This document shows positions 1 through 50,934 of a stretch of 64,000 bases of DNA, piece by piece (the stretch's first letter is position 1; every line of letters starts with the position of its first letter). The DNA comes from Prochlorococcus marinus str. MIT 9301. GTDB taxonomy: Bacteria; Cyanobacteriota; Cyanobacteriia; PCC-6307; Cyanobiaceae. The DNA lies in assembly GCF_000015965.1 (NCBI RefSeq), contig NC_009091.1, forward strand, positions 1,054,001 to 1,118,000, in the 5' to 3' direction. The notes under the pieces were generated by a model. The model ran no database searches and had not been told where the DNA came from. It was given only the letters and a program-made list of their open reading frames with translations. The position numbers and the translations under genes were made by a program.

Positions 1-594
1 TCCAACACTCTTGATGATTGTGGTAATGTAAACGCAAATATCGATAATGCTGGTGCTTCTGCAATGGCTGAATATGATTTCGGTAATGGCTTTACTGCTG
101 CTGTAGGTTATGCAGGTAATGAAGAAGGTCTTATGACTACAGCTAAAAATGACGCTTACGGTGCTAACTTAGCTTATATTGCTGATAACTACGGCGTTTC
201 TTTAACTTACGGAATGCAAGAGGATGGTGCTAGTAACGAAACATATACAGCATTAAACGGTTTCTATTCATTTGATAACGGTTTAAACATCAGTGCTGGT
301 TATGAAGTCGGAGATCTCGATGTTGCTGACGCAAATGTGGACGAAACATTAGCGTACTTCGTCGGAATTAACGGTGATGTAGGTCCAGGTGAACTTGGTG
401 CTGCTGTAGGTACTAATGGATCTATGACTGAATCTGCTGGTTCTATAACTGAAGAGATGATGTATGAAGTATATTATGACTACCCATTAAATGATGGTAT
501 GACTATTACTCCTCTTGTTTTCGTCAAGGAGTCATCAACAGCTGGCACTCCAGATCAAACTGGTGTAATGGTTAAAACAACATTTAAATTCTAA
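1..594 (+). CDS. Outer-membrane porin, C-terminal part (PhoE/Som type)
   Basis: The reading frame is open from base 1 to the stop at 594, so the gene begins before the window; the first internal Met codon is at 64. The visible 197 residues are rich in Gly, Asn, Asp and Tyr, with alternating short amphipathic strands such as GFTAAVGYAG and LNISAGYEVG. They end in TTFKF, the terminal aromatic residue typical of outer-membrane beta-barrels. Picocyanobacterial porins of this type carry an SLH domain upstream, which is not visible here. In related genomes a phosphate-stress porin (phoE) lies beside phoB-phoR, so the neighbouring phoR supports a PhoE-like role in anion uptake. The porin class is fairly sure; the phosphate-specific role is inferred from context. 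Confidence 0.8.
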   Translation, partial: SNTLDDCGNVNANIDNAGASAMAEYDFGNGFTAAVGYAGNEEGLMTTAKNDAYGANLAYIADNYGVSLTYGMQEDGASNETYTALNGFYSFDNGLNISAGYEVGDLDVADANVDETLAYFVGINGDVGPGELGAAVGTNGSMTESAGSITEEMMYEVYYDYPLNDGMTITPLVFVKESSTAGTPDQTGVMVKTTFKF

Positions 595-4010: not shown

Positions 4011-4186
4011 AATGAAGTCTATCCAGACACAATCATGGTCCAAGAAATTTTACCTCTAGATAAAATTTTTATTTAAAATTTTATTAAAAACTACTTTTAA
4101 ATATTTTTTAAATATATCTTAAATCCGACCTTCTTTTTTTAATGTTAGCTTACTTCAACGTTCATCCAATTTATTTGGACGCATGA

Positions 4187-4214
4187 AATGAGAATAGGGA
4201 ACGGGATTCTCATT
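4187..4214 (+). promoter_or_regulatory. Structured 5' leader hairpin (copy 1)
   Basis: AATGAGAAT (4187-4195) and ATTCTCATT (4206-4214) form a perfect 9-bp stem around the loop AGGGAACGGG, 14 bp before the start of the 56-aa gene. The same leader, including about 45 bp further upstream with AACGTTCATCCAA and GGACGCATG, occurs before the paralogue at 32458-32628. There the loop is identical and the stem changes keep pairing through G-U pairs. This suggests a conserved RNA element, type unknown. Confidence 0.6.
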
Positions 4215-16125: not shown

Positions 16126-16145
16126 GCACGCAAATGGCACGCATA
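16126..16145 (+). repeat. Flanking repeat R1, right copy
   Basis: Identical 20 bp to 12320-12339, again with an 11-bp internal period. It lies 40 bp after the autotransporter stop and 154 bp before the end of tRNA-Pro remnant A. Confidence 0.8.
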
Positions 16146-16237
16146 TCCTTCCAAGCTAGTCCTAATTAGACCACACTTTTTTCTCTAAATATACTGATAT
16201 AGCTATAAGTCTCAAATATAGCCTCAATCTTGCGGGT

Positions 16238-16283
16238 TCTTTGGGAGCACTAGTTCGCAGGTTCGAATCCTGTCGCCCCGACT
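16238..16283 (+). pseudogene. tRNA-Pro 3' remnant A
   Basis: The sequence retains the 3' half of the anticodon loop (TTTGGGAGCAC), an intact T arm (GCAGGTTCGAATCCTGT) and the acceptor 3' strand CGCCCCGA. Loop TTTGGGA implies anticodon UGG. There is no D arm or 5' acceptor strand upstream, so it cannot fold as a tRNA. It is one of four such remnants. Confidence 0.88.
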
Positions 16284-16303
16284 CTTAAAAACCAATTCAT
16301 ACT

Positions 16304-16329
16304 AGCGAGTTACCCTGACTCGCTTTTTT
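16304..16329 (+). terminator. Terminator carried with tRNA-Pro remnant A
   Basis: AGCGAGT (16304-16310) pairs with ACTCGCT (16318-16324) over TACCCTG and runs into T5. It starts 20 bp after the acceptor end, and similar hairpins follow remnants C and D, so it is probably the native terminator of the parent tRNA-Pro gene. Confidence 0.85.
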
Positions 16330-16340
16330 ATTTATTTTAA

Positions 16341-16382
16341 TGTGACATATTTGTATTTTTGTCATATTTATGTCATATGTCA
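16341..16382 (+). repeat. 11-bp-period repeats R2 after remnant A
   Basis: TGTCATATTTA and TGTCATATGTC (16360-16381) are adjacent direct units with an 11-bp period, preceded by an inverted-like TGTGACA at 16341. They begin 80 bp after the acceptor G of remnant A. They look like arm-type binding sites for a recombinase. Confidence 0.6.
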
Positions 16383-16530
16383 GTCTTTGTAGAATTATTC
16401 ATGAATATTCTTAGTTTTTCCCTATGTCTTATCAAGGATAAAAATTCTAAAAGATAGACTGATAATATTCACAATGTTCTCTAAGGGGTTTTGGGTTAGC
16501 TTTATCACTTTTTTTGTCTATTATTTATTT

Positions 16531-16779
16531 ATGGAGAAATTTACTCTTATAAATAAGGACAGATCAAGAATAAAAGTCTTTGAACCATTTGAAGTTGTTT
16601 CCAAGCCTTCGCCAAGCATTGATGCAATGATGATTTCTTACGGGTGTGTCTATAAGAGAAGTAGTAAACCAGTTATGAGAGGTTCACGAGTAGAAACTAT
16701 TGAAGATGCAAGAAAGGAATATAAGCAGTTATTGGAAGAGGGTTGGAAGAAGACAAATATTTTTAGAAGTTATTTTTAA
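16531..16779 (+). CDS. DUF1651-like small protein
   Basis: An 82-residue protein, MEKFTLINKDRSRIKVFEPF through EDARKEYKQLLEEGWKK, with the C-terminal pattern (A/E)R..Y..LL..GW(K/R)(K/R) seen in other DUF1651-type genes here (25357-25602, 41854-42123). I chose ATG 16531 because the decayed paralogue at 28120 begins at the same residue. The frame extends up to ATG 16474, which would add a hydrophobic N-terminus. The function is unknown. It is the first gene after remnant A. Confidence 0.7.
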   Translation: MEKFTLINKDRSRIKVFEPFEVVSKPSPSIDAMMISYGCVYKRSSKPVMRGSRVETIEDARKEYKQLLEEGWKKTNIFRSYF

Positions 16780-16841
16780 TTAAAAAAACATTTGCATAAT
16801 TTCTTAAAACTGGTAATTTTAGTGGACTTGAATAAGTTCAA

Positions 16842-17057
16842 ATGCAAGATCAAAGAATTGAAAAGATAGCAGCTGTTGCAGTAAACATAACTAAAGTGCT
16901 AGTAATCATTTATCTAGGCTTCGTAGAAGTATTTAAAATTGGTAAATTACTCAGAGAGAAGTTAGATGCTGAATTTGACATTTCTCGAAAATGGGCTTCA
17001 CAAGCTTATTCAATTCTAAAAAAACGACAGGCGGAACAAAAAGTAGCGAGAGTTTAA
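16842..17057 (+). CDS. Small membrane protein, 71 aa
   Basis: The 71-residue protein has one hydrophobic helix (ITKVLVIIYLGFVEVF) followed by a basic helical tail (SILKKRQAEQKVARV). It starts at ATG 16842, 62 bp after the DUF1651-like gene. No known family is recognised. It is cargo between tRNA remnants A and B. Confidence 0.55.
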   Translation: MQDQRIEKIAAVAVNITKVLVIIYLGFVEVFKIGKLLREKLDAEFDISRKWASQAYSILKKRQAEQKVARV

Positions 17058-17196
17058 AATTTTTTGCTATAAATTAACTGAGGCCAAACCTCGTCAGCAC
17101 ACTCTACGTTTGCTGCAAGACATAGATTGATTCAATATAGTTGCGAGTCAATTTAATAACCCTTTCAGTAGTTGGAATTTCTGGAGGGGTTTCTTG

Positions 17197-17319
17197 TTAC
17201 TGATATTTATTGAGTAGGCGATTATAAATTACCAACAATACTATTACTCCAACTATTCCATAAGTTGCATGGGCTGGATCATGATGATTCTGCCAAATCT
17301 CCTGTAAAAATTCCTTCAA
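17197..17319 (-). CDS. Possible small membrane protein, 40 aa (TTG start)
   Basis: The minus strand encodes about 40 residues with EIWQNHHDPAHATYGIVG followed by a hydrophobic helix (VIVLLVIYN) and NRLLNKYQ. The sequence looks genuine, but no ATG is available and the start would be TTG, so it may be a gene that lost its start. The rest of 17058-17396 shows nothing else I can support. Confidence 0.4.
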   Translation of the reverse strand: MKEFLQEIWQNHHDPAHATYGIVGVIVLLVIYNRLLNKYQ

Positions 17320-17396
17320 TACTTAATAGCTATTACCCAATGAGGATAACACTTATGAGATTTTTCTCTAATTAATTGTAATTTTCTGCTATTTTT

Positions 17397-18779
17397 TTAC
17401 CAAAATTTAAATATGCTCTCTTTCTCTACAAAATTCCCGCAACTATTAGTATTTTCAGCTTCAACTGGAATTTCACTATTTAACGACCTTAAAATATCTA
17501 CGATTGAGATGGCAAAATTTAAATTCTGAGCTCTACCCTCGTCTCCAGGTAAACTCCAGGTATTCACTCCAACTACCTCACCATTGCTATTTACCAAAGG
17601 GCCTCCGCTATTACCAGGACTTATAGCTGCATCTGTTTGTATAAGAGTCACATAATATGGGACTACGTCTTCTAAATCACTTGATGGTTGTCTCACTGCA
17701 CTTACAATCCCTCTAGTCACTGTTCCCGCTAAACCTAAAGGAGATCCAAGAGCAATTACATTTTGACCAGGTCTTGGATATTTACTAAAACAAAGAGGAA
17801 GAGCTTTTGAATTCTTAGTGTTATTTGATTGTATTAATGCGAAATCAAGCTTTGAGTCTACATAAATAACTTCACCTTGATCTTTTAACCCATTATCTCC
17901 AGAGATAGTGAATTCTTTATCTCCACCGGCAACTACGTGCATATTAGTAACAATAAGTCCTGTATTATTTATAAAAAAGCCACTTCCTAATCCAGAATCT
18001 CCCTCTAATTTGACTACTGATGGAAGAGTTATAGATGCTATTTCCTCTATATCAAGTTTTTTTGAACTAATTGAGGCTCGAGCTATTTCATATTTAGGTT
18101 TGTTCCACTCTTTTGTATCCTTTTGGAATAATAGTTTTAAATTTTTTATTGTTTCATCACCTATAGGGATAAATTTATCTGCTAAACCACTATTTGGGAT
18201 AGCTTTAATTTGTAAATTAATAGATTCATTCTCACCTATATTCTTTATTCTTTTTGCAAATCCATAAGGGAATTGAAATTCACCTCTACTACCTCTTAAT
18301 CTAAACCTCTTGTCTCCAACAAATATCTCAATAAAACCAGGAAAATCGTAATATCTAGCACTTTCATAAGTACATGTCCAAAAACCACAACCACCCCAAG
18401 TTAATATTCTTCCTTCTAATTTGTTGGTATTCCATTTCGTGACATAACTTTTAACTGCTCCGGTACTAAAATCAGAAACATAATCCCTATCAAAAATTGT
18501 TAATTCATATGAATTTCTAAGAGATGATTTGTATTTTATGATTTTGGACCAAGCAATCTTAGGATTTTTCTTTTTCCAATCGACATCTTTTTCATATTCA
18601 ATAACTTCTAAACCTGTATCTTCATCAATAACTACATTTCGCAGGTATTTCTCACTACATCTTTTTTTATTTTTGTGAACAGGTGAATCACAATTAATCT
18701 TTACGGCTAATAATTCTTGAGCATTAAAAAAAGAGCCAAACCCCAAAACAATTACTAAAAGTATTAATTTTCTCATCAA
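17397..18779 (-). CDS. Secreted trypsin-like serine protease (HtrA-type domain)
   Basis: The 460-residue protein begins with a hydrophobic signal (LILLVIVLGFGSFFNA). Its first 240 or so residues are of no family I know and hold paired Cys (CGFWTC). The C-terminal half is an S1C protease domain with His281 (VTNMHVVAGG), Asp312 (SKLDFALI) and Ser391 (SPGNSGGPL), the full triad. No PDZ domain follows, unlike DegP/HtrA housekeeping proteases. It is probably periplasmic or extracellular and lies between tRNA remnants A and B, so it is likely acquired cargo. Confidence 0.88.
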   Translation of the reverse strand: MMRKLILLVIVLGFGSFFNAQELLAVKINCDSPVHKNKKRCSEKYLRNVVIDEDTGLEVIEYEKDVDWKKKNPKIAWSKIIKYKSSLRNSYELTIFDRDYVSDFSTGAVKSYVTKWNTNKLEGRILTWGGCGFWTCTYESARYYDFPGFIEIFVGDKRFRLRGSRGEFQFPYGFAKRIKNIGENESINLQIKAIPNSGLADKFIPIGDETIKNLKLLFQKDTKEWNKPKYEIARASISSKKLDIEEIASITLPSVVKLEGDSGLGSGFFINNTGLIVTNMHVVAGGDKEFTISGDNGLKDQGEVIYVDSKLDFALIQSNNTKNSKALPLCFSKYPRPGQNVIALGSPLGLAGTVTRGIVSAVRQPSSDLEDVVPYYVTLIQTDAAISPGNSGGPLVNSNGEVVGVNTWSLPGDEGRAQNLNFAISIVDILRSLNSEIPVEAENTNSCGNFVEKESIFKFW

Positions 18780-19017
18780 ATAGATTTTCTTTTATTGATA
18801 TTATCTGTATTTAATTTAATTGTCCCTCTTTTGTTAAGAGCAGCTTAAGCAAACAAAAAGTCAATTTAAAAATCAGAGCTAAGAGTAAAGCCAGAAAATA
18901 AATAATCCTAATTAAAACTAATTATAACCATCAAAATCTTGTCTCCAATTACCTGCTAAAACTAGTATTTCCTCAGAACATAACAAATGTCTTATAGATT
19001 TCTCAGAAGTTAGTACT

Positions 19018-19066
19018 AGTGCTTTGGGAGTACTATATCGTAGGTTCGAATCCTGTCGCTCCGACT
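19018..19066 (+). pseudogene. tRNA-Pro 3' remnant B
   Basis: Contains a foldable anticodon arm (AGTGC, loop TTTGGGA, GTACT), the T arm (GTAGGTTCGAATCCTGT) and acceptor 3' strand CGCTCCGA, but no 5' half. Differences from the other copies show independent drift. A weak, decayed version of the terminator hairpin follows at about 19085-19110. Confidence 0.85.
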
Positions 19067-19138
19067 CTTAAAAACTAAGTTATATTAGTTGGTCATCCAG
19101 ACTAGCTATTTTAATGGGGAAATTCACTTTACTCTCTT

Positions 19139-19160
19139 GATATCAGTTTGATGTCAAATG
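19139..19160 (+). repeat. 11-bp-period repeats R3 after remnant B
   Basis: GATATCAGTTT is followed directly by GATGTCAAATG, two imperfect units with an 11-bp period beginning 76 bp after the acceptor G of remnant B. The spacing matches that at the other remnants. Confidence 0.5.
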
Positions 19161-19299
19161 CATCTTGGCAGAGTCAAAATCTTTTTTAATAGTTGTCAAT
19201 AATAATAAGTATCTATTTTGCTTCTCAAAAACAGTATCTATTTATGCAAGGTGATTTATAATTTCATAATTAATTTATTGATCTAACTTACAAAAAAGT

Positions 19300-19929
19300 A
19301 TGAATATTAAGATTAATCCAAAATTTTTATTTCCTACCCAATATTGGGAAGTTGAATTAAAAGAAAGTATAAAAGAATTGCAAAATGAGTCATATATAAT
19401 TAAGAAAAATGATCAGGAAGGGGTTATAAAAAGTAATACTGGTTTAAACGGATATCACTCTAAAGATATAAGGAATTTTGAAAATATCCCAAAAATCAAT
19501 AAGTTGATGTTTGAGATAGCTAATTGTGTTAATTCAATTCATCAAGTCAGTAGAAGGGGGAAACTTAATTTGGCTAATTTTTGGATAAATATTAGTGGGA
19601 AAGGAGCCTCTAATTCTCCTCATGTACATTCCGGCAATAATTATTCGGGTGTTTTTTTTATAAAAATACCTAAAGAAATGAGTGGAGGAAGATTTCTTTT
19701 TTATAGAAATTTTAATGATGCAGCATTAAATTCAATGGCTTACATGGGTCAATTTAAAGATGGTTATAAAATGCAGTCCTATGATTATCCGATTATCACA
19801 ATTCCTCCAAAAGAAAATATGTTGTTAGTTTTCCCTTCTTGGGTTCCTCATGCAGTAGAGACAAATTTATCTGATGAGGACCGTATAAGTCTTTCATTTA
19901 ACTTTATTTTAAATAGATCTTTGCCCTGA
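19300..19929 (+). CDS. Putative 2OG-Fe(II) oxygenase (TIGR02466-like)
   Basis: The 209 residues resemble the short 2-oxoglutarate oxygenases also carried by cyanophages. Ligands appear in NSPHVHSGNNYSGVFF (His108, His110) and SWVPHAVETN (His174), with Arg186 in EDRISLSFNF to hold 2-oxoglutarate. The first metal motif is HxH rather than HxD, as is usual for this group. The substrate is unknown. It is the only clear gene between remnants B and C. Confidence 0.8.
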   Translation: MNIKINPKFLFPTQYWEVELKESIKELQNESYIIKKNDQEGVIKSNTGLNGYHSKDIRNFENIPKINKLMFEIANCVNSIHQVSRRGKLNLANFWINISGKGASNSPHVHSGNNYSGVFFIKIPKEMSGGRFLFYRNFNDAALNSMAYMGQFKDGYKMQSYDYPIITIPPKENMLLVFPSWVPHAVETNLSDEDRISLSFNFILNRSLP

Positions 19930-19961
19930 AAAATTCTTCACTTATAAATAGCTAACAGCGG

Positions 19962-20075
19962 TCAAATATGGCTAATTGAAAGGTGAAATGTTATTAGTAG
20001 GGTTGCAAAAAGCATTCCTTTCAAGGCAATAGGAAATACCCAAATACCAATAAATCTATGGTCAAAAAATCTCAA
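19962..20075 (-). CDS. Possible 37-aa membrane peptide (TTG start)
   Basis: A minus-strand frame encodes DHRFIGIWVFPIALKGMLFA and more hydrophobic residues to the stop at 19962. The only start is TTG. It may be a decayed small gene. The remaining bases of 19930-20412 show nothing else convincing. Confidence 0.25.
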   Translation of the reverse strand: MRFFDHRFIGIWVFPIALKGMLFATLLITFHLSISHI

Positions 20076-20412
20076 ATGATCTCACCCCTGAAAATACTTC
20101 TTAAAGAAATAAATAGGGATTCTGGTCGCTTATAAGATGGCCCACTTAAAGGGAGGATGAAATGATATTGAATTTAGATATTCGAAGTAATCAAATGACT
20201 CCATAATTTTTACTCGTAATTTCCAAAAACTATATTTTATCTCTCAAATTTCAATTGATTTAAATAGATCAAAACCTCGTATAAAATGCTTGTTAAATTT
20301 TTCTTAACTAATATTTTGATGAAAAATATTACTTTATTTGTCATATCAAACCTAGCAGAACTAATCAAAATTAGATCTTGCTTGAATACCCATTACCGCA
20401 CTATGACTGTTA

Positions 20413-20461
20413 AGTCCTTCGGGAGCACTAGGTCGCAGGTTCGAATCATGTCGCCCCGACT
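20413..20461 (+). pseudogene. tRNA-Pro 3' remnant C
   Basis: Has part of the anticodon arm (AGTCC, loop TTCGGGA, GCAC), the T arm (GCAGGTTCGAATCATGT, one mismatch) and acceptor CGCCCCGA. With the downstream 45 bp it is nearly identical to remnant A. The loop would read CGG, probably drift. No 5' tRNA half is present. Confidence 0.88.
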
Positions 20462-20484
20462 AAATCAAAACCAATTCATACTGG

Positions 20485-20508
20485 CGAGTTACCCAAACTC
20501 GTTTTTTT
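20485..20508 (+). terminator. Terminator carried with remnant C
   Basis: CGAGT (20485-20489) and ACTCG (20497-20501) flank TACCCAA and lead into seven Ts. It is homologous to the terminator after remnant A. Confidence 0.8.
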
Positions 20509-20519
20509 ATTTCATTTAC

Positions 20520-20556
20520 TCGTTGGCTCCAATGCGCCAACGAATCGCCAAAAAAT
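20520..20556 (+). repeat. Inverted plus tandem repeats R4a after remnant C
   Basis: TCGTTGGC (20520-20527) is the inverse of GCCAACGA (20536-20543), with 8 bp between. CGCCAACGAAT (20535-20545) is then repeated as CGCCAAAAAAT (20546-20556), an 11-bp period, starting 77 bp after the acceptor G. This looks like a core-plus-arm recombinase site. A related pair, R4b, lies past the next gene. Confidence 0.65.
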
Positions 20557-20634
20557 AGTTTGATCTTAATAAAGAAACAAATGTTGAATAAGTTTTTTAA
20601 ATAAAGTATTTTCTTTATAATCTTTTTTAAATTT

Positions 20635-21249
20635 ATGTCTGCCTTAAAATCTTTTGCTGCTTTATCGATCGCATCAATGAGTATTTTGCCTTTAACTCCA
20701 GAATTAAAAGCGGATGATTATGAAAAAGGATTTTATGGCACTATCGGTGCAGGTGCTGGTACTTTTTCTGATTTACTTTTAGTAGGAACTCCATTCGCAT
20801 TAGCTTTTGATCCCGGATTTAGTTATGAAGGAAGCTTCGGATATGACTTTGGAAAGCACTTTAGAGCAGATGTTAGTTATACAAATACAATCTCAACTAT
20901 AGTTACTGACCATCAAGCTAAGTTCGGTTCAATAATCCTAAATGGATATATAGATCTTCCAATTGAGGATACAAAATGGACTCCATTTATAGGAGCAGGA
21001 TATGGTTCAACAAATGTGGATGCAGTAAATTTATGTACTGCCGGAGGCACAGATGACTGTACAGATGACGTTGCTACCTACAGCTTAAGTGGAGGTATAA
21101 GTTATGCTCTAAATTCAGATACTGACATAACAGGGAAAATAACATACTTGGGATTTGACACAATTAACGTAACTGATGATGGGACACTTGTAACTGTTAC
21201 CGAATCTGAAACGCTTTCAGCTCATATAGGAGTGAAATTTAAGTTTTAA
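20635..21249 (+). CDS. Small outer-membrane beta-barrel protein
   Basis: The 204-residue protein has a signal peptide (cleavage near PELKA-DD) and an eight-strand-like barrel of the OmpA/opacity type. Alternating Gly/aromatic strands include GFYGTIGAGAGTFSD, YEGSFGYDFGKHFRADVSY and WTPFIGAGYGST. It ends in HIGVKFKF, the outer-membrane insertion signal. Two Cys (LCTAGGTDDCTDD) could form a surface-loop disulfide. It lies between repeats R4a and R4b, so it is a one-gene cassette. Confidence 0.85.
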   Translation: MSALKSFAALSIASMSILPLTPELKADDYEKGFYGTIGAGAGTFSDLLLVGTPFALAFDPGFSYEGSFGYDFGKHFRADVSYTNTISTIVTDHQAKFGSIILNGYIDLPIEDTKWTPFIGAGYGSTNVDAVNLCTAGGTDDCTDDVATYSLSGGISYALNSDTDITGKITYLGFDTINVTDDGTLVTVTESETLSAHIGVKFKF

Positions 21250-21272
21250 AAGACAATTTATTCTTAAATAAT

Positions 21273-21294
21273 CGCCAACGAATAGCCAACAAAT
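21273..21294 (+). repeat. 11-bp-period repeats R4b
   Basis: CGCCAACGAAT followed by AGCCAACAAAT, the same unit family as R4a. It lies 24 bp after the barrel gene and 152 bp before the acceptor G of remnant D, almost the same distance as R1b to remnant A (154 bp). Confidence 0.65.
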
Positions 21295-21379
21295 ATCATA
21301 TAAAAGAACTAATAAATTAAGTTAGAATTAAATTTTTCTAATTATAACCATATAGAACTAATGCTATTTTCATTAAATA

Positions 21380-21428
21380 AGTGCTTTGGGAGCACAGGGT
21401 TGTAGGTTGGAATCCTGTCGCCCCGACT
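21380..21428 (+). pseudogene. tRNA-Pro 3' remnant D
   Basis: Contains the anticodon arm AGTGC, loop TTTGGGA, GCAC, a T arm with one change (TTGGAATC) and acceptor CGCCCCGA. No 5' half is present. It is the last of four remnants, right before the core gene block that starts with the flavoprotein. Confidence 0.87.
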
Positions 21429-21448
21429 CTTTAAATGCAAGTTGTACT

Positions 21449-21472
21449 AGCGAGTTACCCAGACCCGCTTTT
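21449..21472 (+). terminator. Degenerate terminator after remnant D
   Basis: AGCGAGT (21449-21455) and ACCCGCT (21463-21469) with one mismatch, then four Ts. It matches the hairpins after remnants A and C. Confidence 0.6.
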
Positions 21473-21486
21473 ATATTGCAAAAATA

Positions 21487-21518
21487 TGACCACTCGAAAC
21501 TTGGTCAGATAGTGATCA
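21487..21518 (+). repeat. Inverted plus tandem repeats after remnant D
   Basis: TGACCA (21487) inverted to TGGTCA (21502), which recurs as TGATCA 11 bp later (21513). It begins 77 bp after the acceptor G if the direct unit is counted. The pattern copies that at remnant C with a different unit sequence. Confidence 0.45.
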
Positions 21519-32642: not shown

Positions 32643-32670
32643 AATGAGAATCCCGTTCCCTACTCCCATT
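32643..32670 (-). promoter_or_regulatory. Structured 5' leader hairpin (copy 2)
   Basis: On the minus strand, AATGGGAGT (32662-32670), loop AGGGAACGGG, ATTCTCATT (32643-32651). Relative to copy 1, two stem bases changed from A to G, giving G-U pairs, while the loop is unchanged. Upstream blocks AACGTTCATCCAA and GGACGCATG are also kept. Confidence 0.6.
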
Positions 32671-32817
32671 GCATGCGTCCAGAGATATAAACTTGGATGA
32701 ACGTTAGTGAACGATAACATCTTTAAAAAAATTTCGCGAGAGTAATTTTTACTAAATTTTTCTCAAAAAAATAAATATTTAATAGATAGTATAAATAAGG
32801 TTTTAATACTTCCTAAA

Positions 32818-50784: not shown

Positions 50785-50810
50785 ATGAGAAAAAATATTT
50801 GTAAAAAAAA

Positions 50811-50841
50811 AGAGATTGTTTCTTAGCTAAAAACAATCTCT
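50811..50841 (-). terminator. Minus-strand terminator
   Basis: AGAGATTGTTT (50811-50821) and AAACAATCTCT (50831-50841) form an 11-bp stem with a 9-base loop. On the minus strand it runs into nine Ts, ending the unit that starts with 51515-51799 or 50935-51150. Confidence 0.9.
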
Positions 50842-50934
50842 CAATTACCTAATTCTTACATGAAAATTTCAAGTAAGCTTTCAGATCTTAACTGATTTGT
50901 AATTATAGTAAATCCGTAAAAATGCTTTTGTAAT

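Follow-up and report, generated by a model that had tools for sequence, protein, structure and literature searches.

Tandem tRNA-Pro fragments in MIT 9301

The complete genome of Prochlorococcus marinus MIT 9301 (1,641,879 bp) contains an array of tRNA-Pro 3' fragments, four of which lie in the 64,000-bp stretch of DNA analyzed here (C1:1054001-1118000, hereafter the window) and are followed by short tandem repeats with a period of 11 bp. We propose, with a probability of about 0.87, that these repeats are arm-type integrase sites which, read by a swappable N-terminal domain, tag both autonomous elements and integrase-less cassettes for different recombinases. A preliminary description of the window had counted four tRNA-Pro 3' fragments and placed the first repeat unit 80, 76, 77 and 77 bp after the acceptor. 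A search with the 23-nt tRNA-Pro 3' end recovers all four, each on the plus strand and with zero expected in shuffled sequence, and on re-measurement the four distances are exact. The acceptor reads CCCCG in fragments 1, 3 and 4 and CTCCG in fragment 2. Fragments 1-3 pass a lag-11 test (6-of-7 identity, +70..85; shuffled chance of 2-4% each), and the degenerate units of fragment 4 (TGGTCAG/TGATCAA) fail it. An ARAGORN scan of the window returns zero intact tRNAs. The intact tRNA-Pro(UGG) lies upstream, at G000:C1:1045700-1045774 (G000 being the MIT 9301 genome), with an additional fragment at 1047294 between it and the window; together the intact gene and five fragments make six core copies at no more than 3 mismatches, all on the plus strand.

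The clear example of an element with matched ends in the window spans 20413-21380, where CGCCAACGAAT occurs at both ends and a single beta-barrel gene lies between. The unit 16280-19019 appears from its sequence to be a composite of two arm classes, because its degenerate right arm at 18875 belongs to another class than its left arm; an alignment of 1655 bp links its right part, at 89.5% identity, to an element whose arms read AGAGCTA. In the 19018-20413 element, the left unit has no recognized match at the right end, and fragment 4 has no downstream core.

Repeats occupy set positions around the core in many genomes

The 23-nt core (at most 2 mismatches) is found in 226 of 266 same-genus genomes, often in several copies, and in 84 of the 87 that are at least 90% complete. 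Array regions were taken from the 21 genomes, MIT 9301 among them, for which core positions were listed. They hold 166 sites at no more than 3 core mismatches, of which one lacked a 300-bp flank, leaving 165 (128 nonredundant). The preliminary description had called for a lag-11 autocorrelation behind the tRNA-Pro fragments of other genomes, and this is what we find: 51 of the 128 sites have lag-11 pairs at +60..135 against a shuffled mean of 9.4. Lags 10 and 12 give 29 and 28 sites (shuffled 8.7 and 8.1), but these are weaker and lag 11 is the clear signal, because a control interval at the same sites (+180..255) already holds 12 and 18 pairs at lags 10 and 12 and 6 at lag 11. The repeat period varies from 10 to 12 bp by class. 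With a stricter pair definition applied to 119 cores, tandem pairs peak at +50..99 and -100..-149 of the core (62 and 43 sites in the bins at +50 and +75; 46 and 39 at -100 and -125). Counts fall to at most 19 sites in the bins adjoining both peaks and to 0-8 in almost every other bin within 1 kb, and we reject chance or AT-rich repeats on the enrichment over shuffles and over these neighbouring bins.

The geometry was read on 164 distinct sites, the anchor bases of the first left unit being placeable in part of them. Downstream of the core, 98 sites carry a terminator-like stretch (class I), 30 begin TCAGTTATAGCA (class II), 19 begin TTGACTTCTCA (class III) and 17 are unclassified. Left anchors in class I lie mostly at 78-80 (58 readings from four unit families, outliers spanning 69 to 92), in class II at 57-59 (23 readings) and in class III at 34 (8 readings). 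When one unit family is compared across classes, its left anchor lies 21-22 bp farther from the core in class I than in class II, about two helical turns, and 45 bp farther than in class III. On the right, most anchors are 102-106 or 142-148 bp 5' of the core. The distance of 75-80 bp that had been described for the window is thus confirmed there, but the idea of one fixed spacing is refuted, since left anchors fall near +79, +58 and +34 and right anchors near -105 and -145.

The limits of the remnants also relocate the crossover, which had been placed in the T-arm and acceptor. The 3' remnants start at GTGCTTTGGG. Three chromosomal loci carry only a 5' half (L024, L030, L069) and two viral attachment sites (attP) carry the tRNA 5' half (L196, L198); in all five the shared sequence stops at about GGGAG(C) or a few bases beyond. 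The overlap of the two kinds of remnant excludes a T-arm core and places strand exchange in the anticodon stem-loop. By this comparison, the T-arm/acceptor identity is simply the tRNA half carried by the element. Some elements bring the tRNA 3' half and others the 5' half; in loci of the L106 and L181 type, and in L196 and L198, the 5' half is carried along with the upstream region and the intact tRNA stands at the right end.

Elements between cores have matching ends

With the cores as boundaries, the arrays divide into 136 units. Their lengths range from 436 bp to 23 kb, with a median of 2113 bp, and 97 are shorter than 3 kb. After dropping 15 without a left tandem unit, 121 were tested for end matching. 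The left unit is repeated in the same orientation at the element's own right end in 79 of the 121, compared with 10.5 under permutation (maximum 18), and matching in the reverse orientation is found in 5 versus 5.8 permuted. In many elements, left and right attachment sites (attL/attR) are therefore retained without an integrase, as a member of the integrase family described below is present in just 7 of the 136 elements.

The arrays also differ from one genome to the next. Ten near-full-length element pairs, in six groups, are common to different genomes; nine of the ten had at least one comparable neighbour, and the neighbours differed every time. Counted in ranks from the intact tRNA, more distant cores carry more mismatches (rho 0.51, n=130), with means of 0.0, 0.4, 1.5, 2.0 and 3.9 at ranks 0-4 and 2.0-3.5 at later ranks, as expected if newcomers insert at the intact gene. 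Detection stopped at 3 mismatches in the searched core, so the older end of the arrays is undercounted.

In one case a cassette can be compared with a larger relative. The first MIT 9301 element (1045749-1047294) aligns to both ends of a 9.1-kb integrase-bearing element in genome G008 (L050), over 1244 bp at 97.3% identity on the left and 166 bp at 84.9% on the right. Besides the family integrase, the larger element encodes another recombinase with PF00589, a protein with weak helicase similarity and one resembling excisionases. This fits a derivation of the MIT 9301 element by internal deletion with both ends kept, as judged from the alignment; the caveats are a stronger divergence at the right ends than at the left and a mismatch of the left ends over their first ~50 bp. 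The reverse course, in which the larger G008 element gained modules, is possible. The second recombinase of the 9.1-kb element is short (212 aa; L050:6619-7257), and short open frames with PF00589 recur in other genomes. Elements with GCGA units (for example L040 and L057) have a second set of repeats, TTGCATA-like and with a ~10-bp period, beside the arms at both ends, and these are possibly excisionase sites or further arm sites.

Whole attachment sites in viral contigs

Viral contigs hold complete attP. In 13 of 20 viral-contig loci, an integrase, a right arm, a tRNA-Pro core and a left arm stand together and the arm-type repeats on both sides of the attP core share one unit, with 9 distinct units among them. 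Eleven of these attP carry the tRNA 3' half (L193, L195, L197, L199, L200, L201, L206, L207, L209, L210, L211) and two the 5' half (L196, L198); the L200 integrase reads in two frames. For instance, the attP of L195 consists of two copies of TGTAATCTAG, the core, and then TGTAATCTAG and CGTAATCTAG. Five further loci are incomplete: a core is missing from L202 and L203, an integrase next to the core from L204 and L205, and the left side from L208. L199 also encodes a terminase, a portal and a major head protein, so at least one viral locus is a temperate-type phage; its host, judged from the tRNA alone, would be a marine picocyanobacterium, which makes it a candidate temperate phage of that group. 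In the annotated phage collection, nothing matches the L195 integrase at E<=1e-5.

A tyrosine recombinase family adjoins the arms

The seven integrase-bearing elements share an open reading frame (ORF) of ~400-460 aa at the right end, pointing inwards and beside the right arm. Six residues, R298, K321, R393, H394, H417 and Y426, are invariant in all seven aligned proteins; they fit the R-K-H/x-R-H-Y pattern and we take them to be the tyrosine recombinase catalytic set. Foldseek and VIA structure matches are to Tn1549 and lambda Int. A Pfam search with the L050 integrase gives nothing at E<=0.1, and in PHROGs it matches integrase (E 0.003); PF00589 is found in 12 of 13 viral integrases at E<=0.1 (best 4e-6). 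The predicted full-length model superposes on lambda Int (1z1b) over model residues 9-377, with 299 aligned, Z 11.2 and a root-mean-square deviation of 12.5, and the N-terminal domain is predicted to consist of a helix, three strands and a helix.

Integrase matches occur in 238 of the 266 same-genus genomes, a count that includes a widespread shorter gene of 389 aa. In MIT 9301 this 389-aa gene is the sole match and no cognate integrase is found, so the copies in its array are relics or dependent on help in trans; the genome may hold relics only. Excluding integrases below 150 bits or without an N-terminus left 111, of which 92 are unique in the first 120 residues, many of them closely related. 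A strict 11/12-bp pair lies within 33 bp of the start codon in 48 of the 92, compared with 0-1 in five shuffles and 0 inside the gene. In total, 41 distinct arm pairs adjoin integrases of this one diverse family. Distances from integrase start to core group around 115, 150 and 169 bp; classes that are followed by an entire tRNA-Pro have theirs around 227 and 244 bp (tRNA-Pro confirmed at L106, L181 and L186). Seven of the 92 integrases are without a tRNA-Pro core; a tRNA-Gly is present at L187 and L189 and a tRNA-Thr at L191, and all three loci have repeat pairs near the integrase start.

Arm units change with the N-terminal domain in swap groups

Many cassette ends can be assigned to an integrase by their arm. 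At 0.85 identity or better, 97 of 272 element ends match some integrase arm (0 when shuffled), involving 68 of the 136 elements and 18 integrases; the 97 include a few ends of elements that supplied the integrase. In MIT 9301, the element at 1045752 matches the L050 arm (1.0 at the right end), 1047297 matches L058 (0.9) and 1074438 (window 20438) matches L157 (0.85). The match of 1073043 to L160 is weak (0.75), and 1070260 and the last MIT 9301 site have no convincing integrase-arm match.

We compared arm and protein distances by Mantel test in 32 of the 48 strict-arm integrases, nonredundant at 10%. Arm distance correlates with N-terminal domain distance (rho 0.336, 0/999 permutations; partial 0.164, 7/999). 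The claim for the domain itself comes from pairs of integrases that differ much more in one part of the protein than in the other. In six independent swap groups (L136/L137/L138; L151/L157 with L153; L152/L156; L193 with L195/L197; L206/L211; L208/L209), the bodies are 0-7% different, the N-terminal domains 26-71% different, and the arm unit differs in every group, sometimes by no more than one or two bases. Eighteen swap-like pairs had been flagged, of which six (L141/L142 vs L044/L134/L135, and L146/L140) have no scorable direct arm pair; the arms of L208/L209 were read directly from the loci, L208 ending at the core. In the reverse direction, L153/L149 and L162/L156 keep the same arm unit with N-terminal domains 14% different and bodies 32% and 53% different. 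These are the two with the same unit among 13 flagged pairs, the rest having related, different or unscorable units.

Two viral pairs carry the comparison across the core. From L193 to L195 the unit TGTATCCTAG turns into TGTAATCTAG, each of the four copies being altered at the same two positions; from L206 to L211, GCACAT is replaced by GCATAA, again at matching positions in every one of the four arm copies. In both pairs the core is identical and the inter-arm spacers are mostly alike, which argues against simple linkage of the right arm to the adjacent integrase start.

Proposed model and alternatives

Based on these data, the repeats would be arm-type binding sites of lambda/Tn916-style tyrosine recombinases, and each tRNA-to-tRNA unit would be an integrated element, some units being composites of two. 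An element would read core, left arm pair, cargo, right arm pair, next core. The core, presumably the anticodon loop and tRNA 3' half, often with a terminator, would be common to all, and newcomers would insert at the intact tRNA-Pro and displace older elements downstream. The arm unit would differ by class and serve as an address, read by the N-terminal domain of that class's integrase. A few elements would carry the integrase; most would be integrase-less cassettes, many with both arms, and would depend on a matching integrase supplied in trans by another element or by a phage. The arm address and the N-terminal domain would switch jointly, by exchange or alteration, with little difference in the catalytic body. 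We infer from sequence that the units are physically bound, that they are helically phased and that cassettes are mobilized in trans. The preliminary description had read the fragments as attachment sites whose arm-type repeats, spaced by about one helical turn, are recognized by different recombinases, and the matched arms at both ends, the integrases starting beside arm pairs and the whole viral attP all support it. On the broader proposal we are evenly divided: a diversified address code may operate at this one site, in which dozens of arm types and swappable N-terminal domains decide the cassette traffic at a shared tRNA-Pro and addresses switch by concerted arm change and domain replacement. 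If so, the integrase may come from a phage, a satellite or an autonomous element, and the cassette system would be functionally comparable to the integron, but addressed.

Several observations weigh against our proposal. Matching ends are found in just one of the four window units (20413-21380). Among 15 viral loci with an integrase and arms on both sides, two mismatch: the two sides of L194 carry different units, and those of L192 carry units that are related without being the same. No strict direct pair is found beside 44 of the 92 integrases, although some of these have inverted arms by eye and some have wrong script-chosen starts. The N-terminal domain alone has no significant structure match in the PDB. 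In the matrix test the body correlates with the arm at least as well as the N-terminal domain does (rho 0.430; partial 0.326, 0/999), so this test does not single out the domain, and the case for it rests on the swap pairs. As the integrase start adjoins the right arm, co-variation could be linkage, which only the two viral pairs escape. Selection against sharing of arm types within one array was considered and rejected, as the same types are not avoided (7 pairs vs 8.4 permuted).

Other explanations would account for part of these data. The repeats might serve an accessory protein (an excisionase or recombination directionality factor, an element-specific regulator or a replication initiator) and not the integrase. 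We regard this as unlikely: the 9.1-kb element does encode an excisionase-like ORF (phrog_66, E 1.3e-5) and the GCGA-unit classes do have a further repeat set of ~10-bp period beside the arms at both ends, but in swap pairs with near-identical bodies a different integrase N-terminal domain goes with a different arm class, and the repeat pairs flank the core on both sides at few set distances. Furthermore, no BLAST family of element ORFs exceeds 17 of the 136 elements, so no accessory gene accompanies the repeats generally; the same is true of the integrase, and accessory genes were not systematically searched. It is somewhat less probable again that one broadly specific integrase serves the whole array and that arm differences are neutral drift. 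One core is common to all, and related classes differ by 1-3 bases per unit. Drift, however, would not alter all copies at the same positions with flanks mostly alike, nor does it explain the 41 arm pairs beside one diverse integrase family or the two pairs with alike N-terminal domains that keep their unit despite body differences of 32% and 53%. We consider it highly improbable that tRNA duplication or homologous recombination left the fragments as fixed relics, with repeats arising by chance or slippage in AT-rich spacers. Many copies are degraded and MIT 9301 has no cognate integrase, but such relics would not give the enrichment over shuffles and neighbouring bins, the matching of both ends, the intact viral attP, or ten element pairs common to genomes with all comparable neighbours differing.

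Under the arm-site proposal, an anonymous island of tRNA scraps becomes a readable structure, in which element boundaries, likely insertion order and cognate integrase class are often assignable from ~30 bp per end. The many natural integrase/arm pairs and the six domain-swap groups are a resource for studying DNA recognition by arm-binding domains. Finally, metagenomic phage contigs are tied to the same tRNA-Pro sequence as picocyanobacteria, which bears on gene gain and loss in streamlined genomes.

Comparison with known systems

In the attP of lambda, L5 and Tn916, arm-type sites flank the core and are bound by the N-terminal domain of the integrase. These are single elements, whereas the tRNA-Pro array has many classes on one core. 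Tycheposons are integrative elements at Prochlorococcus tRNA genes that have a tyrosine recombinase, carry cargo genes and remodel islands. The elements described here resemble them in being inserted at a tRNA gene (tRNA-Pro) in Prochlorococcus, in the tyrosine recombinase and in the cargo. According to the available part of a second-hand account, tycheposons are 4-200 kb with a recombinase, whereas the array units are mostly under 3 kb (97/136) and mostly without one; in that part of the account there is no mention of paired arm units or of arm/N-terminal switching (PMC10872708).

Tandem accretion at a target gene has a precedent in the ssrA islands of Dehalococcoides, which are bounded by a direct repeat of the target gene and of which 15 without an integration module were proposed to be possibly cis-mobilizable (PMC3146451, in part). 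The likeness lies in tandem units at a target-gene repeat, many without integrase; the recombinase and the target are different, an element-specific address is not reported in the portion available, and a text search of that paper for 'arm' returns nothing. In Methylopumilus, additive flexible islands at tRNA-Lys have recurring tRNA 3'-end repeats and variable island size, the repeats being the likeness to our arrays; arm repeats and integrase pairing are not described in the available sections (PMC10872708). Closest to the arm comparison are the IntF/IntB prophages of Oenococcus oeni, in which, from the portion available, attP has direct-repeat arm sites, integrase changes are concentrated in a 66-aa N-terminus and co-evolution was proposed (PMC8074189); they comprise few prophage groups, in contrast to the dozens of arm types and mostly integrase-less cassettes at tRNA-Pro. 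Excerpts of two further papers describe tRNA remnants near a tRNA-Met island in Prochlorococcus MIT9313 (PMC2784084) and attP-tRNA matches in marine phage contigs (PMC3861242). In the accessible parts of the open-licence literature, we found no account of arm-type sites with tycheposons or Prochlorococcus tRNA-Pro islands.

Features of the array and other observations

Table 1. Features of the tRNA-Pro array in window coordinates; arm and core functions are as predicted.
Feature	Position	Strand	Basis
Arm pair GCACGCAAATG GCACGCATATC (period 11) at the right end of the element ending at fragment 1	16126..16147	+	sequence
tRNA-Pro 3' fragment 1, attachment core	16236..16281	+	sequence, 23-nt core search
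Terminator-like hairpin carried with the tRNA 3' half	16303..16329	+	sequence, by eye
Left arm: inverted TGACATA, then TGTCATA x2 at 11 bp; 80 bp after CCCCG	16343..16377	+	
Cargo ORF, weak DUF1651 match (E 0.0039, below Pfam cut-off)	16474..16779	+	
Cargo ORF, 71 aa; BLAST family in 7/136 elements	16842..17057	+	
Yfr13 small RNA within the element (RF02364, E 1.6e-15)	17080..17177	+	
Cargo: trypsin-like protease (PF13365, E 1.3e-28)	17397..18779	-	
Degenerate right arm AGAGCTAAGAGTAAAGCC, different arm class	18875..18894	+	by eye
tRNA-Pro 3' fragment 2	19019..19064	+	sequence, 23-nt core search
Left arm GATATCA/GATGTCA, period 11, 76 bp after CTCCG	19139..19156	+	
Cargo: 2OG-Fe(II) oxygenase (PF13759, E 8.7e-21)	19300..19929	+	
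tRNA-Pro 3' fragment 3	20414..20459	+	sequence, 23-nt core search
Left arm: inverted CGTTGGC, then CGCCAACGAAT and CGCCAA, period 11	20521..20551	+	
Cargo: outer-membrane beta-barrel protein (PF13505, E 9.6e-10)	20635..21249	+	
Right arm CGCCAACGAAT AGCCAACAAAT of the 967-bp element, sharing its left-arm unit	21273..21294	+	
tRNA-Pro 3' fragment 4	21381..21426	+	sequence, 23-nt core search
Degenerate left arm TGACCA (inverted), TGGTCA, TGATCA	21487..21518	+	

The arm class of the pair preceding fragment 1 (16126..16147) is also found at right ends in other genomes, and the BLAST family of the cargo ORF with the DUF1651 match has members in 17 of the 136 elements. The Yfr13 RNA adjoins the 71-aa ORF in the window and is also found inside tRNA-Pro elements at L042:8590-8687, L051:15882-15979 and L059:2323-2421; it appears to travel as cassette cargo. 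Elsewhere in the window there are two glutamine-II riboswitch matches and one Yfr19 match, at 4156-4213 (+), 32644-32706 (-) and 50798-50878 (-). Just 5' of the intact tRNA-Pro at L007 (1579-4152) are tandem ORFs of 399 and 406 aa with near-identical C-terminal parts, which by eye are porin-like.

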